From: Mesoaciditoga sp.
GTDB taxonomy: Bacteria > Thermotogota > Thermotogae > Mesoaciditogales > Mesoaciditogaceae
Length of the DNA stretch: 34,068 bases
Assembly (NCBI GenBank): GCA_015489955.1
Contig: WFYR01000117.1
Location: forward strand, 1 to 34,068
Reading direction: 5' to 3'
Made by a program: the position numbers and the translations under genes
In this document: positions 21,371-27,725 of the stretch, one piece after another
How positions within the stretch are numbered: the first letter of the stretch is position 1
Layout: the number at the start of each line of letters is the position of its first letter
The notes under the pieces: model-generated
The model's input: only the letters and a program-made list of their open reading frames with translations
The model's database searches: none
What the model was told of the DNA's origin: nothing

Positions 21371-22787
21371 TATTCTAAAAAACGCCGAGCAAGAAGCTCA
21401 GAAGATGAAGAAAGAAATGGTTCTTGAAGCAAAACAAGAGATCTCTTCTATGCGAAGCGATTTCAACAGAGAGGTTCAAAAGCAGAGAAATGAATTGAAA
21501 CAATTTGAAGAGAGGCTAAACAAACGTGAAGAGGCCTTCAACAAAAAAGAAGAAGCTTTTTCCAAAAAAGAAGAGAGATTGGAAGAGATAAGAGAAAATC
21601 TATCGAAAAGGGAAAAAGAAATAGAGGAAACTTTGAAAGAAGAAAAGGAAAAATTGCATGAAATAGCAGGCCTTAATCCAAATGAAGCAAAAGAAATAGT
21701 GTTGAAAAGCACGCAAGAGGAAATGGAAAAAACGCTTGCAAAGATGTACACTCAGCTTAAGGAAAAGTACGAAGACGAAGCGGAAGAAAATGCAAAATGG
21801 GTTATGGCAACTGCCATTCAACGTTACGCCAGCGATTACATAAACGAAGTTGCCGTTTCATCCGTTGAATTGCCGAACGACGATATGAAAGGTAGGATCA
21901 TAGGAAGAGAGGGAAGAAACATAAGGGCCTTTGAAAATTTAACGGGTGTGGATCTCATAATAGATGACACTCCAGAAACGGTTGTGCTTTCTTCTTTTAA
22001 TCCATTGAGAAGAGAAGTTGCCCGTCTTACACTGGAAAAATTGATAGCGGATGGAAGAATTCATCCGGCGATGATAGAGGAAATGTATGAAAAGTCAAAA
22101 CGAGAAATAGAAAAATTGGTGCGCGATGAAGGAAAGAACGCCATTTTGAAAGTTGGAATTTCAAGCATGCATTCAGAGCTGCTGAAACTGCTTGGCAGGT
22201 TGAAGTTTAGAACAAGTTTTGGTCAGAACGTCTTACATCATTCAATTGAAGTGGCGCAAATAGCCGCCATGATGGCCGAGGAACTCGGTTTGGATGTTGA
22301 AAAGGTTAAACGCGGAGCCCTCTTGCACGATATTGGTAAGGCGGTTGATCACGAAGTCCAAGGAACGCATGCCATAATTGGAGGAGAATTGGCCAGACGT
22401 TACCATGAAAAGGAAATGGTTGTGAATATGATTCAAGCCCATCATGAAGAGGTACCGTTTGAAAGTCCAGAAGCTGTCTTGGTGGCCGCCGCCGACGCGA
22501 TAAGCGCGGCGAGACCCGGAGCCCGGAGGGAAAGTTTGGACATATACATGAAGAGGCTTCAGAAACTAGAGGAGATAGCCACAAATCACAAGTACGTAAC
22601 GAAAGCTTACGCAATTCAGGCAGGGCGTGAAATTAGGGTCATAGTTGAGCCTGACAAAGTAGACGATGAGTTGGCCGATAAGATGTCTTTTGATATAGCG
22701 CGTGAGATAGAAAAAACGATGGAATATCCGGGCCAATTGAAAGTTGTTGTTATAAGAGAAAAAAGAAGCATAGAGTACGCCAAATGA
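21243..22787 (+). CDS. rny: Ribonuclease Y
   Basis: This endoribonuclease initiates mRNA decay at the membrane. The 514-residue protein has an N-terminal membrane helix ([19 protein letters not shown]), a long Glu/Lys coiled coil (about 25-150), and a KH domain with IIGREGRNIR at 219-228. The HD domain follows, with HH at 332-333 and HD at 362-363 (LLHDIGK). All key elements are intact and the length is typical. The ATG at 21243 has GGAGG at 21231-21235, seven bases upstream. An in-frame ATG at 21213 lies within recX and lacks a ribosome binding site. It overlaps the end of recX by 128 bases and is itself overlapped by the glpP start (ATGA). Confidence 0.96.
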   Translation: MNQEIMIILIFVPIVILAIVLGYHLGKIKELKEQKRARESANDILKNAEQEAQKMKKEMVLEAKQEISSMRSDFNREVQKQRNELKQFEERLNKREEAFNKKEEAFSKKEERLEEIRENLSKREKEIEETLKEEKEKLHEIAGLNPNEAKEIVLKSTQEEMEKTLAKMYTQLKEKYEDEAEENAKWVMATAIQRYASDYINEVAVSSVELPNDDMKGRIIGREGRNIRAFENLTGVDLIIDDTPETVVLSSFNPLRREVARLTLEKLIADGRIHPAMIEEMYEKSKREIEKLVRDEGKNAILKVGISSMHSELLKLLGRLKFRTSFGQNVLHHSIEVAQIAAMMAEELGLDVEKVKRGALLHDIGKAVDHEVQGTHAIIGGELARRYHEKEMVVNMIQAHHEEVPFESPEAVLVAAADAISAARPGARRESLDIYMKRLQKLEEIATNHKYVTKAYAIQAGREIRVIVEPDKVDDELADKMSFDIAREIEKTMEYPGQLKVVVIREKRSIEYAK

Positions 22788-23329
22788 GAAACAAAGAGAT
22801 AATAGCAGCTGTTTGGCAAGATACTTACCTTGAAGATATTCCTCAAGAATGTGAAACGGTTTTTCTCTTAGGCGCAACGATCTCCAATGTTGGAGATCGA
22901 GTGCGCCTTTTTAAATCCAAAGAAGTTTGGGTGGATATAGATTTTGTTGAAGGGCTTGAAAAGAATAAGACTGGTGTGAAATTTTTAAAAGACGCGGGAG
23001 CCGATGGGGTTATAACTACAAAGCTTTCCCTTCTTAAAGAGTGCGAAAAAATCGGTATGCCTGTTATTTTGAGATTTTTTGCTCTTGACTCTCACGCCGT
23101 TAGAAATATTCTTCACCATCTTAGATATGTTAGCAAAGTGGAAGTTTTGCCGGCAGATGTTCTTCCAAAGCTCATAGACACTTTTAAAAATATAAACCCC
23201 GGCATTTTTGTGATAGCTGCTGGTTTGATATCCTCAGCAGAAGAGGTGAGAATGCTTTTTAAAAACGGTGTTGACGCTGTGTCAATTGGAGGAGAAATAA
23301 AAAAAGTCTGGAGAGAATATCATAATTGA
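22784..23329 (+). CDS. glpP: GlpP-type glycerol-3-phosphate-responsive antiterminator
   Basis: GlpP proteins bind glycerol-3-phosphate and then act on leader RNAs to prevent termination upstream of glycerol genes. The 181-residue product follows the family pattern: ATISNVGDRVRLFKSKEVWVDIDFVEGL, then GADGVITTK, then RFFALDSHAV, KVEVLPADVLPK, and IAAGLISSAEEV near the C-terminus. The fold is a TIM-barrel-like single domain, cytoplasmic. The start overlaps the rny stop by four bases. No glycerol kinase or dehydrogenase gene is in this window, so the target leader lies elsewhere or is its own transcript. A strong terminator-like hairpin followed by T5 lies inside this coding sequence at 22871-22912. 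Confidence 0.88.
   Translation: MRNKEIIAAVWQDTYLEDIPQECETVFLLGATISNVGDRVRLFKSKEVWVDIDFVEGLEKNKTGVKFLKDAGADGVITTKLSLLKECEKIGMPVILRFFALDSHAVRNILHHLRYVSKVEVLPADVLPKLIDTFKNINPGIFVIAAGLISSAEEVRMLFKNGVDAVSIGGEIKKVWREYHN
22871..22912 (+). terminator. Terminator-like hairpin inside the glpP coding region
   Basis: GGCGCA (22871-22876), one unpaired A, then CGATCTCCAA (22878-22887) mirror TTGGAGATCG (22890-22899), AG, and TGCGCC (22902-22907). TTTTT follows at 22908-22912. The result is roughly 15 bp of stem with one small internal loop and a tight terminal loop. It lies 88 bases after the start codon and covers the conserved ATISNVGDRVRL residues. Whether it terminates transcription is not known. Confidence 0.6.
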
Positions 23330-23422
23330 ATCTTAATGAACTCTTCAAAACGAGTATAAACTAAAGAAAAACCTTCTCTGTATACTTAATTAACAAGTAA
23401 ACGCCGAAGGGAAGGTGTTTGG

Positions 23423-23575
23423 ATGGATAAGTTTAAGAGAGTAGTAGACAATCCAAGGGTGATCTCTCAATTTGAACTTTTGAAGATGATGAGAAAGAAT
23501 AAAAAAGAGGCAAACGTAGAACTTGTCCGCCGTTCTCTGGAAGGCTATGAGACTCCACAAAATGCCAAAAAATGA
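23423..23575 (+). CDS. Small 50-residue protein of unknown function
   Basis: This short gene starts with ATG at 23423, preceded by AAGGTG at 23412-23417, and ends with TGA at 23573-23575. The product reads MDKFKRVVDNPRVISQFEL, continues with a basic helix (LKMMRKNKKEANVELVRRSL), and ends in GYETPQNAKK. It is soluble, basic and probably helical. I do not recognise a family. Support comes from the good ribosome binding site, the composition, and a 14-base overlap with the ABC ATPase start at 23562, which implies translational coupling. Without it, 93 bases of intergenic sequence would grow to over 230 in an otherwise tightly packed region. Confidence 0.7.
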   Translation: MDKFKRVVDNPRVISQFELLKMMRKNKKEANVELVRRSLEGYETPQNAKK

Positions 23576-24293
23576 AATGGAAACACTTCTGGAATTCAGA
23601 AATTTCTCTTTGAAAATAGGTGAAAAAAAATTCGTTGAAAATTTCTCTTTAAAAGTGGAAAAAGGCAACGTTATTTTGATATATGGACCTCGAGATGCCG
23701 GAAAATCTGCGGTGCTGAGAAGCATGGTCCATTTGAATGAAGAACTTTTTGAATCTATAGAGAGCAAAGGAGATATCTATTTTAGAGGTAAGAATGTTGT
23801 TGAACTTAAAAGAAAAGCATTGAGAAAGAAAATAGCCTACATAGACACTTCCTTCATAGAAAGTCTTTCTTCTTTAAGCGTGAACCAGGTTATAAAATTG
23901 GTGAAGGGTAACGGTGTTGATCTTTATCACGATGAGATGATAGATCTCTTGAAAAAATTGGAAATATTGGATCTTTTGAAAAAAGGGATACATACCAAAG
24001 TTGGAGAACTTCATGGAAACGAAAGAGTTCTCTTTTTGCTTTTTGTTGCACTTTTAAGAGACCCTGAAATAGTGGCTTTGGACTGTATAATAGATCATCT
24101 GGACGATGAAGCGGCTTTGAAAGTTCAGAAGGTTGTGTTATCATTAAAAGAAAAGTACACTCTTATACTTGCTACAAGAAGGTTGCCTAATTTTCTTTCC
24201 ATTGCGGATAAAGTTGTGGTTTTAAAAAGCGGTAAGATAAAATTTGTAGGTACAAAAAGAGAGATGATGCTTACCTTCAGCGAGGAGGTATGA
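23562..24293 (+). CDS. Degenerate ABC-type ATPase without usual catalytic motifs
   Basis: The 243-residue product has the overall ABC nucleotide-binding fold. Walker A is intact as GPRDAGKS at 42-49 (K48). The other motifs have decayed. The Q-loop region reads IAYIDTS with no Gln. The signature reads GELHGNE where LSGGQ is expected (148-154). Walker B keeps D174, but the catalytic Glu is Cys (ALDC). The switch His is Arg in LATRRL. The closest resemblance is to import-type ATPases such as PstB. Nucleotide may still bind, but hydrolysis as in a transporter looks unlikely, and no membrane partner is encoded nearby. The ATG at 23562 overlaps the small upstream gene; 23577 is an alternative start. 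The kinase gene follows after one base. A regulatory or sensing role is inference. Confidence 0.8.
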   Translation: MPKNEMETLLEFRNFSLKIGEKKFVENFSLKVEKGNVILIYGPRDAGKSAVLRSMVHLNEELFESIESKGDIYFRGKNVVELKRKALRKKIAYIDTSFIESLSSLSVNQVIKLVKGNGVDLYHDEMIDLLKKLEILDLLKKGIHTKVGELHGNERVLFLLFVALLRDPEIVALDCIIDHLDDEAALKVQKVVLSLKEKYTLILATRRLPNFLSIADKVVVLKSGKIKFVGTKREMMLTFSEEV

Positions 24294-24294
24294 A

Positions 24295-25254
24295 ATGGGT
24301 ATTTTAACCGTTACCCTTAATCCTGCTCTTGATCGCTTAATAGAAATCGACAATTTCAAAGTTGGTACCATGCATAGAATATTTGATGAAGATAAAACCA
24401 AGGTGTCTCCGGGTGGTAAAGGGATAAACGTTTCTTTGTATTTAGAGCAACTTGGGGTACCTTCAACCGCATTGGCGATCCTTGGCGGATTGACAGGGAG
24501 AATGCTTCAAGTTAGATTGAGAAGGGAATGCAATCAAACCATTTCTACGAGCTTTTTGTACGTAAACGATGAGACAAGGGAAAACTTCACAATCGTTGAT
24601 AGAAAAAGTAACACCATAACAACCGTGAATTTACCAGGTCCGTTCGTAGATGAAAAACATTTCAAATTGTTTATGAAAAAATACAAAGCTCTCCTTTCTA
24701 ACACCACAATTTGTGAAATAGGTGGCACCATTCCCGCAGGTATGCCGTTAGATGTGTATAAAGATATGGTAAGAATGGCAAAGGAAGCGGGTGCATTGAC
24801 TGTGGTTAATGCGCACGGTGAACCGCTCAAATACGCCATTGAAAGTGTGCCAGATATAGTCAAACCAGATATAAGGGGAACAAAAAAAGTTTTAAACAGA
24901 GAACTTAAAACGATTGGAGATTACGTTCAATCGGCGAAGGAATTGTTATCTATGGGTGTGAAAATGGTTATATACTCTTTTGAAATGAAAAATGATATCG
25001 TTGCAACCTCTGATTGGACTTATCTTTTCAAGATGAGAGGTGAAATAAAGAGTGTAAATTTAATGGGCACAGGGGACGCTTACATTGCCGGCTTGATTTA
25101 CGCTATCAATGCGGGTAAAGATTATTTTGAAAGCGCCAGATACGCCATGGCTGCTGCCATAGCCGATGAAATGACAGAAAGCAAGGATGTCGGGGGAATT
25201 GAAGAAGTGGAAAAAATGATGAGCCTCATAGAAATGGAGCGTGTTTCTCAATGA
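24295..25254 (+). CDS. PfkB-family hexose phosphate kinase (1-phosphofructokinase type)
   Basis: This 319-residue ribokinase-superfamily enzyme probably phosphorylates a sugar phosphate such as fructose-1-phosphate or tagatose-6-phosphate. The start ILTVTLNPALDR is typical of the FruK/LacC subgroup. The first PfkB signature is SPGGKGINVSLYLEQLG (about 39-55). The second contains the catalytic Asp in LMGTGDAYIAGL, with GTGD in place of the commoner GAGD. The gene starts one base after the ABC-like gene and overlaps the CBS gene by four bases (ATGA). No PTS or other sugar transporter gene is present here, so the physiological substrate is open. Confidence 0.88.
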   Translation: MGILTVTLNPALDRLIEIDNFKVGTMHRIFDEDKTKVSPGGKGINVSLYLEQLGVPSTALAILGGLTGRMLQVRLRRECNQTISTSFLYVNDETRENFTIVDRKSNTITTVNLPGPFVDEKHFKLFMKKYKALLSNTTICEIGGTIPAGMPLDVYKDMVRMAKEAGALTVVNAHGEPLKYAIESVPDIVKPDIRGTKKVLNRELKTIGDYVQSAKELLSMGVKMVIYSFEMKNDIVATSDWTYLFKMRGEIKSVNLMGTGDAYIAGLIYAINAGKDYFESARYAMAAAIADEMTESKDVGGIEEVEKMMSLIEMERVSQ

Positions 25255-25688
25255 AAGTTGAGGATTTCATGGAAAGGGACGTAACAGCCGTTTTTGCCGA
25301 TGAAACGGTGGAAGAATTCATACACGCTTGCGTAAGACAGTTCAGAAGTGGTTTGCCAGTTGTGGATGATGAAATGCGTGTTTTGGGAATAATAACTGAA
25401 AGGGACATCATACACGAAATAGTGCCTTCTTACATGGAGATGCTTCATTCCACATCTTTTATTCCGGATACGAACATCACAAAAAAAAGGCTTGAAGAGA
25501 TAAAAGACAAGCCAATAGCGGAATACATGCAAAAAGAGCTTGATGTTTTGAAAACCTCTGATACGCTTTTAAGCGCTGCGACATTGGTGTTAAAGCACGG
25601 ATATAGATTTTTGCCGGTGATCGATGAAGAAGAACATCTTGCGGGCATTGTAACACGTTCTGTTATACTGGAGGCTCTTCTTTCTTGA
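25251..25688 (+). CDS. CBS-domain pair protein
   Basis: The 145-residue product consists of two CBS domains (about 1-65 and 85-145). Each has the usual sequence: MERDVTAVFADETVEEFI with GLPVVDDEMRVLGIITERD, and LDVLKTSDTLLSAATLV with FLPVIDEEEHLAGIVTRS. Such Bateman modules bind adenine nucleotides or SAM and report energy state. It has no attached catalytic domain, so it should act on a partner. Tight overlap with the PfkB kinase upstream (ATGA) and mtaB downstream (TTGA) suggests the kinase or the ABC-like protein as candidates; that is inference. Confidence 0.9.
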   Translation: MKVEDFMERDVTAVFADETVEEFIHACVRQFRSGLPVVDDEMRVLGIITERDIIHEIVPSYMEMLHSTSFIPDTNITKKRLEEIKDKPIAEYMQKELDVLKTSDTLLSAATLVLKHGYRFLPVIDEEEHLAGIVTRSVILEALLS

Positions 25689-26917
25689 AATACTACGTTT
25701 ACACTTTAGGATGCAAATTCAATCAATATGAAAGTGCCAAGATAGCGGCTGAATTTCAAAAAATGGGATATACGGGTGGAACCGCAAATGAAGCGGATGT
25801 TGTGGTAATAAACAGCTGCGCCGTGACTAAAGAAGCGGCGAGAAAATCGCTTCAAATGGCTCGGCATTTCAAGAGAATAAATGAAAAAGCCAAGATAATT
25901 TTTACCGGTTGTGCCGTGTACGACAAAAGAGATATAAAAGATTTTGATCTTGTAATTGGAAATGGCGAAAAGATAAAGATAAATGATTTCGTAGATAAAA
26001 AAGGAACCTTTGTAGATTTTTCTTACCATCTGAAAGATGACTTGAATTACACCGTTGAAAAAATACCGAACCATACGCGCGCCTTTTTAAGCGTTGAAAA
26101 TGGGTGCAATTGGTCATGCGCGTACTGTGCTATACCGCATTTTAGGGGAACTCGCATTCGTTCTAAGCAATTGGATGTGGTTGTAAAAGAAGCGACGAAA
26201 ATGGTGGAAAATGGTGTAAAAGAAATAGTCGTTACAGGCATAAACATAGCGTTATACAACGATGGCGGAAATGATCTTTACACTCTTTTAAATGCTTTAA
26301 TCGGTATAGATGGGGATTTCAGGATAAGAATAGGATCAATAGATCCCGTGAGCCTTTTAAAATTGGTCAAAATTTTTGAAAATCCGAAACTTTGCCCTCA
26401 CGCGCATCTATCCGTTCAAAGCGGTTCTGATGAAGTCCTGAAAAGAATGAAAAGACGTTACACTTCTCGTGATGTGATAGAGTGCGTTAATACATTGAGG
26501 AAGATAAATCCTTTTTTTGCTTTTTCTGTCGATGTGATTGCCGGTTTTCCACAGGAGAGCGAGAAGGAATTTGGTGAAACTTACGAACTTTTAAAAGAGC
26601 TTGAGGTTTCGCGTATCCACGCATTTCCATTTTCAAGACGTTCTCACACGCTTGCAGATTCCATGGAAGGGCAGGTAAGTACGCTTGTAAAAAAAGAACG
26701 AACGAATAGGCTCAGAGAACTTGGGAAAATGTTGGAAAATAGTTTCGCTGAAAAGACAAAAACGATTGAAAAAACCGTGTTAATTGAAAAAGTGGAAGAT
26801 GGCGTGGCGGAAGGGTTAGACGAATACTATGTGAGGCGCTTTTTCAAATACGAGGGCAAAGAAGGCATTTTTGTCAAAATGGGCGGGAAGGTGGTAAGCG
26901 ATGAAAGTCTACATTAA
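25685..26917 (+). CDS. mtaB: tRNA t6A37 methylthiotransferase MtaB
   Basis: This radical-SAM enzyme converts t6A at tRNA position 37 to ms2t6A. The 410-residue product has the N-terminal UPF0004 cysteines (C10 in TLGCKFNQYES, C45, C76) and the radical SAM triad C141-x3-C145-x2-C148 (CNWSCAYC). A TRAM-like tail is also present. The TLGCKxNQYES start and the GSIDP segment fit MtaB, not MiaB or RimO. The start is TTG at 25685, supported by GGAGG at 25671-25675 nine bases upstream and by the family N-terminus beginning there. The TTG overlaps the stop of the CBS gene. The next gene overlaps its end by 17 bases. Confidence 0.93.
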   Translation: MKYYVYTLGCKFNQYESAKIAAEFQKMGYTGGTANEADVVVINSCAVTKEAARKSLQMARHFKRINEKAKIIFTGCAVYDKRDIKDFDLVIGNGEKIKINDFVDKKGTFVDFSYHLKDDLNYTVEKIPNHTRAFLSVENGCNWSCAYCAIPHFRGTRIRSKQLDVVVKEATKMVENGVKEIVVTGINIALYNDGGNDLYTLLNALIGIDGDFRIRIGSIDPVSLLKLVKIFENPKLCPHAHLSVQSGSDEVLKRMKRRYTSRDVIECVNTLRKINPFFAFSVDVIAGFPQESEKEFGETYELLKELEVSRIHAFPFSRRSHTLADSMEGQVSTLVKKERTNRLRELGKMLENSFAEKTKTIEKTVLIEKVEDGVAEGLDEYYVRRFFKYEGKEGIFVKMGGKVVSDESLH

Positions 26918-27725
26918 CGGTGAATGGAAAGAAGATGCCGTCGTAAGTGTTTACGACAGGGGATTTATGTACGGTGAGGGAATTTACGAGAGTTTGAGAA
27001 CTTACAATGGAAGATTATTCGCACCTCGTCAGCATTATGAAAGGTTGAAACGTTCCGCCCAGCTTATGGGGTTGCCTTGCAAATTGAACTACGATGAACT
27101 GATTTCAATAATCCAAGATGGAATAAAAAATTTGGATAAGGATGTTACAATTCGGGTAATGGTAACGACCGGCAATGGAAAAGAGCCCAACCTTTTGATA
27201 TACATCATGGAATTGCAGGCTCCTCATTCGGATCTGTACATTTACGGCGTCGACGTGGGAATATCTCGTTTACGAAAGATTCCTTCTATTTGCTTACCTT
27301 CCACCCTTAAAACCACTTCTCACGCTTATTTAAGCCTTGCAAGAAGGGAAAAGGGAGAGTTTTACGAAATAATATTTTTAAATTATCAAGGATTCGTCGC
27401 TGAAGGGACGATGAGCAACGTTTTTTTGGTTGAAAATGGAACGCTGGTAACTCCTTCTTTGGAGTCTGACATATTAGACGGTATAACCAGAAGGGTTGTC
27501 ATAGATCTTGCCAGGTCTTTGGGAATTTCAGTTGAAGAAAGATTTGTAAATGTAGATGAGCTTTTCAACTGTTCCGAGCTTTTCCTTACAAGAACCAGCG
27601 CGGGAATAATACCCGTTAGGAGGATAGAAAGCAGAACGATTTTTGAAAATGAGCCTTCGGGCTTGACCATACTTCTATCCGATAATTTCAAGGATTACAT
27701 TTTCAATGAAGAAAAATACTGGTGA
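26901..27725 (+). CDS. Class IV PLP aminotransferase
   Basis: This 274-residue fold-type IV PLP enzyme belongs to the group holding branched-chain aminotransferase, D-amino acid aminotransferase and aminodeoxychorismate lyase. The catalytic Lys is K137 in PSTLKTTSH. The cofactor-binding EGTMSNVFLV and the ILDGITRRVV stretch are present, as is the N-terminal YDRGFMYGEGIYES. It is shorter than most IlvE proteins and close to the D-amino acid or lyase size, so the substrate cannot be fixed. The FolT-type gene elsewhere in the window does not bear on this. The start at 26901 has GGAAGGTGG upstream and lies inside the end of mtaB. Confidence 0.87.
   Translation: MKVYINGEWKEDAVVSVYDRGFMYGEGIYESLRTYNGRLFAPRQHYERLKRSAQLMGLPCKLNYDELISIIQDGIKNLDKDVTIRVMVTTGNGKEPNLLIYIMELQAPHSDLYIYGVDVGISRLRKIPSICLPSTLKTTSHAYLSLARREKGEFYEIIFLNYQGFVAEGTMSNVFLVENGTLVTPSLESDILDGITRRVVIDLARSLGISVEERFVNVDELFNCSELFLTRTSAGIIPVRRIESRTIFENEPSGLTILLSDNFKDYIFNEEKYW

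Follow-up and report, generated by a model that had tools for sequence, protein, structure and literature searches.

Two gene pairs that lie side by side in one operon of the Thermotogota are each inherited as a unit, and are inherited independently of each other. One pair consists of a small helical protein and an ABC-fold protein whose ATPase motifs have been replaced throughout the family; the other consists of a PfkB-type kinase and a CBS-pair protein. Both were read from a 34,068-nucleotide stretch of Mesoaciditoga sp. DNA (contig WFYR01000117.1), hereafter the window, whose genome is G000 in the comparison set and whose family has Mesoaciditoga and Athalassotoga as its closest named kin. 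All distribution and linkage counts refer to 103 Thermotogota genomes. Judging from sequence comparison, we place the probability at about 0.55 that these are two functional pairs sharing an operon, namely an ATP-binding, non-hydrolysing ABC protein with its small partner, and a CBS-regulated kinase.

Gene layout and inheritance of the two pairs

All genes of the locus lie on the + strand, in the order recA, recX, rny, a glpP-like gene, small, abc, pfkB, cbs, mtaB, a pabC-like aminotransferase gene, yicC, a remA-like gene and gmk, where recA, recX, rny, pabC, yicC and gmk are names that we presume from the sequence and general knowledge. The small gene (23423..23575, +) encodes 50 residues and follows a Shine-Dalgarno-like GGAAGGTG at 23410..23417 (+), which was read from the sequence and also stands upstream of the small gene in four other loci (L031, L032, L034 and L035). 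The abc gene (23562..24293, +) encodes 243 residues from its first ATG and overlaps small by 14 bases; use of the alternative in-frame ATG at 23577 would leave a 1-base gap instead. Exactly one base (24294) separates abc from pfkB (24295..25254, +; 319 residues), and an exact ATGA overlap (25251-25254) joins pfkB to cbs (25251..25688, +; 145 residues). The four genes and the junctions described in the first-pass annotation are therefore real, with the 14-base overlap dependent on ATG 23562. For all four genes, dN lies far below dS.

The packing extends beyond cbs. The mtaB gene (25685..26917, +; TIGR01579, 387 bits) overlaps cbs by four bases (TTGA, 25685-25688), and the pabC-like gene (26901..27725, +) overlaps mtaB by 17 bases (26901-26917). 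Synteny identifies both as conserved operon neighbours, with mtaB outside both pairs. Because the chain of overlaps runs on into mtaB and pabC, which had gone unremarked in the first-pass annotation, the four genes do not mark a natural boundary. The mtaB/pabC overlap is retained in most loci and reaches up to 65 bases.

Among relatives, the small/abc junction varies between a gap of 10 bases and an overlap of 59. The largest overlaps with the assigned ABC start (50-59 bases, more than in the window) belong to family f2 (L043, L046 and L057), where the true ABC start may lie further downstream. Upstream of small, the GlpP-like gene (22784-23329; G3P_antiterm, Pfam 127.5 bits) overlaps rny by 4 bases; within the window's family, genera g1, g3 and g4 carry it next to rny, and in the other loci inspected it does not adjoin the module. 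No Rfam RNA element reached gathering score in the window, and scans for promoters and terminators found no more than in shuffles. PADLOC returned only weak ABC-type matches, and a defence system was discarded as a candidate.

Inspection of the 103 genomes reveals tight association within each pair. An ABC ortholog is detected by profile in 89 genomes and by position in one more, G020, giving 90/103, and the small gene is present in 89/103. Small directly precedes abc in 87 of 89 genomes, and in the remaining two a contig break, close to abc or to small, places them on different contigs. The single ABC gene lacking a small neighbour, in G078, starts at the very edge of its contig. PfkB occurs in 92/103 genomes and the CBS protein in the identical 92, with pfkB directly preceding cbs in all of them (92/92). 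Allowing for G020 and G078, the association within each pair is perfect.

No such association links one pair to the other. The presence of abc is not associated with the presence of pfkB-cbs (Fisher p = 0.14 over the 103 genomes, in a test that assumes independent genomes, an assumption that does not hold here); ten genomes carry pfkB-cbs only and eight carry abc only. Of the 82 genomes with both pairs, 64 have abc ahead of pfkB. Seventeen of the 18 exceptions belong to family f7, which its named members identify as Petrotogaceae, where the pairs are widely spaced or carried on separate contigs; in the last exception, G062, two contigs are involved. PfkB and CBS are jointly absent from the Athalassotoga group (G002, G005, G007 and G009) and from Petrotogaceae g16/g18, among them G025, whose genome is a single contig. 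Counted conservatively, pfkB-cbs has been lost jointly on two or more separate occasions, in the Athalassotoga group and in f7 g16 and g18. Small-abc is absent, again separately, from two or more lineages, namely part of f11 and, if these are taken as one group, f3, f5 and f8. In the Athalassotoga group small-abc stands directly in front of mtaB, and in f7 the run pfkB-cbs-mtaB-pabC stays together without small-abc.

The first-pass annotation had read the four genes as one coupled module encoding a nucleotide-sensing complex that controls sugar phosphorylation. As a module, the proposal holds within each pair and fails between them, and the separation of genes in relatives, raised there as a possible objection, occurs between pairs and does not occur within them. 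A single complex, in which the ABC and CBS proteins sense nucleotides and control the kinase, would account for the adjacency and tight packing of the pairs in 64/82 genomes, but every one of the 17 Petrotogaceae holding both has them unlinked, and 18 genomes keep one pair only, such that we consider this arrangement quite improbable. At the other extreme, the proteins may form no complexes at all and be co-transcribed housekeeping neighbours of mtaB-pabC, their co-occurrence reflecting shared operon history only. The packing through mtaB and pabC agrees with this, as does the persistence of mtaB when either pair is missing. It is nevertheless unlikely, given that both members of each pair are lost jointly while mtaB stays and that small and abc are still together after leaving the operon in Petrotogaceae. 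For the two-pair reading itself, conserved adjacency can reflect translational coupling instead of a complex.

The ABC protein and its likely small partner

The ABC protein matches Pfam ABC_tran, and its AlphaFold2 model presents a complete nucleotide-binding domain (NBD) fold (pLDDT 89.8) that superimposes on E. coli PstB, among the nearest solved structures, with a TM score of 0.83. Motifs were called from an alignment of 41 orthologs (32-82% identity), with eight ABC paralogs from Thermotogota, seven PstB-like and one other, as the canonical reference. Walker A (GPRDAGKS, residues 42-49; 23685..23708, +) is retained with invariant columns at G42, R44, K48 and S49, of which Arg44 is an added invariant residue, and the Walker B Asp (D174) is likewise invariant. 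In contrast, the Q-loop FQKP of the canonical PstB-like paralogs is missing, its aligned site reading YIDTSF (residues 93-98; 23838..23855, +). The LSGGQ signature aligns with LHGNE (residues 150-154; 24009..24023, +) in the window, and most relatives have nothing recognisable as a signature. Within the Walker B/D-loop segment (DCIIDHLDD, residues 174-182; 24081..24107, +), the catalytic Glu position holds Cys175 in the window and Cys, Ser or Asn across orthologs. The D-loop Asp181 is kept and invariant, D178 and H179 are new invariant residues and D182 is nearly invariant, giving the family consensus D-[CSN]-x-x-D-H-x-D-D. An invariant Arg206 (24177..24179, +) occupies the switch His position. 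Alignment with PstB-like paralogs thus bears out the motif losses and retentions listed in the first-pass annotation.

The same replacement motifs are common to the 41 aligned orthologs, and orthologs occur phylum-wide; the motifs represent a fixed state of the family and not decay. The absence of four ATPase motifs from the window sequence might have pointed to one degraded gene in G000, with relatives retaining all motifs, but the same replacements in 41 aligned orthologs, and the spread of orthologs through the phylum under purifying selection, have already refuted that explanation. A pattern scan of 84,980 species, considered with the ABC alignment, yielded no convincing ortholog outside Thermotogota, its three matches beyond the phylum being weak general ABC matches; as the scan requires one of two conserved peptides, distant relatives beyond the phylum could escape it.

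Several more divergent homologs were encountered. In the G020 homolog L107 (G020:C97, about 80672-81373 of the contig), Walker A reads GASTHAEREAF, without its Lys, and the Walker B Asp is gone too, yet this reduced ABC gene still sits between small and pfkB. That small is kept beside an ABC protein without Walker A and B hints that ATP binding is not essential in every lineage, which counts against the two-pair reading as it stands. The divergent homologs of G014, G024 and G061 retain Walker A and the Walker B Asp. Five genomes of f7 g19 (G029, G033, G041, G045 and G049) encode a second ABC protein that scores up to 112 bits against the ABC profile. The sole one aligned, L118 of G033, is a canonical PstB-like sequence, which fits a PstB origin of the degenerate family.

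The best NCBIfam match of the ABC protein is PstB (TIGR00972), with which it shares the NBD fold and a similar LRSxxxxN after Walker A. It differs in scoring 90.3 bits against a cut-off of 343.2, in the four lost motifs, and in having no PstA or PstC alongside. Degenerate NBDs are known in heterodimeric exporters, and the protein could conceivably be a transporter subunit, or form a heterodimer, as its degenerate half, with a canonical NBD that is encoded elsewhere together with a permease that is likewise unlinked. The full predicted NBD fold, the retained D-loop Asp and the presence of TM287/288 among structural matches of the model favour such a role. The signature and the Q-loop, the site that contacts coupling helices, are missing, however; no conserved membrane gene adjoins abc in the neighbourhoods compared, in line, for that neighbourhood, with the earlier statement that no membrane partner is encoded, and the constant partner is a 50-residue soluble protein. 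We therefore judge a transporter role very improbable.

The nearest working comparison is found in ABC modules on a soluble enzyme complex. PhnK/PhnL is described as a dual ABC ATPase that remodels C-P lyase (PMC9947105); the likeness lies in ABC modules acting without a permease, and the differences are that the window protein has lost its catalytic motifs and has no C-P lyase genes nearby. A literature search for pseudo-ATPase ABC proteins found nothing.

The small protein ranges from 47 to 62 residues among aligned orthologs. One Gln is invariant and one Ser nearly so, and the conserved core centres on SQ-[FYI]-[ED]-[LF]-[LI]-[KR] (SQxELLK in short form). Three helices are predicted (residues 2-9, 16-24 and 28-38), with high confidence over the core. 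Comparison of the window gene with L031 gives 24 synonymous and 6 non-synonymous changes, and such strong purifying selection shows that the protein is real. Searches of 41 members against Pfam and NCBIfam returned only scattered weak matches and no credible family; the best of these was HTH_16 (0.0012), matched by 3/41 members. There was no significant match among PDB sequences and none in Foldseek. Resemblance to sigma-factor region 2.1 or to HTH_16 by pattern was considered and left as unsupported.

Under the two-pair reading, the PstB-derived fold of the first pair would use Walker A and the Walker B Asp to bind ATP, and would not carry out the usual ATP hydrolysis, lacking a catalytic Glu and signature and carrying Arg for the switch His. 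Its cytosolic role could be that of a scaffold, either ATP-dependent or structural, or of a soluble sensor. The small helical protein would be its dedicated partner and may fill the groove that receives the coupling helix of a permease. The adaptor role suggested for it in the first-pass annotation survives in this narrower form: co-occurrence and adjacency make it a likely partner of the ABC protein, and lend no support to a four-protein complex.

The PfkB kinase and its CBS neighbour

The kinase is hexose-phosphate kinase-like. It passes the 1-PFK/hexose kinase subfamily model TIGR03168 (222.6 bits against a cut-off of 216.4) and fails the 1-phosphofructokinase equivalog TIGR03828 (213.4 against 292 bits). 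Its nearest solved structure is 2ajr, whose gene we take to be TM0828; a literature search for TM0828 returned no relevant paper, and the gene pairs were sought under no other name. PFK-A is present in 103/103 genomes, which rules out PfkB as the sole phosphofructokinase.

Like the subfamily and 2ajr, the protein shares the acceptor-side and GXGD motifs: NPALD, PGGKG and GXGD are kept, and D13, G40-K42 and the catalytic base position Asp261 of GXGD (25075..25077, +) are invariant in 27 orthologs. NPALD reads NPSLD in Petrotogaceae and takes a variant form in G077. It departs from the subfamily in its constant CBS neighbour and in its metal site, a change that the first-pass annotation had also missed. 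NXXE is the magnesium motif of the ribokinase family, and RXGRGD marks its pyrophosphate (PPi)-dependent members (PMC5931981). Here NXXE is replaced by DIRG (residues 192-195; 24868..24879, +), with D192 and R194 invariant in the 27 orthologs. The change from NXXE to DxR, with loss of the Glu, extends to all PfkB orthologs examined, those of f7 included; a canonical PfkB paralog, L116 of G034, retains NXXE (KPNIYE). TM0415, a ribokinase-family protein of Thermotoga, likewise has Asp for the NXXE Asn, and differs in keeping the Glu and having RXGRGD, whereas the protein here lacks the Glu and has the small GXGD residue of the ATP type (PMC5931981). PPi dependence was rejected, there being no RXGRGD: the window reads NLMGTGD, and relatives carry a small residue within GXGD.

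Loss of the NXXE Glu in every ortholog examined, together with PFK-A in every genome, raises the prospect that PfkB-CBS is a non-catalytic sensor, with a kinase lacking its metal site serving as a sugar-phosphate-binding regulator alongside the CBS protein. Against this, Asp261, GXGD and the acceptor motifs are invariant, and a DxR that never varies points to a substitute site and not to decay. We hold a purely sensory role to be unlikely, on a par with the absence of complexes.

The CBS protein matches Pfam CBS (PF00571) with an E value of 4.8e-25 over two stretches, corresponding to two CBS motifs, and its orthologs share a conserved PSYFSLLQSASFIPD-type stretch between them. CBS1 retains an [ST]-E-x-D stretch, which presumably fits an adenosine-nucleotide site. 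Because a c-di-AMP synthase family is found in 100/103 genomes, c-di-AMP is, like AMP and ATP, a candidate ligand. The nearest working model is by analogy DarB/CbpB, a small stand-alone CBS-pair protein that controls its target enzyme in trans (PMC7900238, PMC8822347). CbpB (NF041630) is the top NCBIfam match of the CBS protein at 64.5 bits, below the cut-off of 125, which counts against the two-pair reading. The CBS protein differs also in its PSYFSLLQSASFIPD-type stretch, and c-di-AMP binding is putative. Within the two-pair reading, the second pair would comprise a PfkB hexose-phosphate kinase with acceptor-side motifs, catalytic Asp and an altered metal/donor motif, regulated in trans by a CBS protein that may sense an adenine nucleotide (AMP/ATP or c-di-AMP). 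Kinase control by the CBS protein, one element of the first-pass proposal, thereby gains support as a plausible pairing.

Significance of the two pairs

These results define two phylum-wide Thermotogota gene pairs. The first centres on an ABC fold whose lost ATPase motifs are replaced by a conserved new set, the second on a kinase whose metal site is altered and which always has a CBS neighbour. More tentatively, at slightly short of even odds, small-ABC may represent a phylum-specific, permease-free ABC system with a non-hydrolysing NBD (marked by Asp-His-Asp-Asp and Arg) and a permanent helical microprotein partner, and PfkB-CBS an independent enzyme and regulator with DxR in place of NXXE. 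Both pairs are small and occur in cultured Thermotogota, and 2ajr already provides a kinase structure, such that ATP binding without hydrolysis, control by a microprotein and control by a CBS protein are each directly testable.
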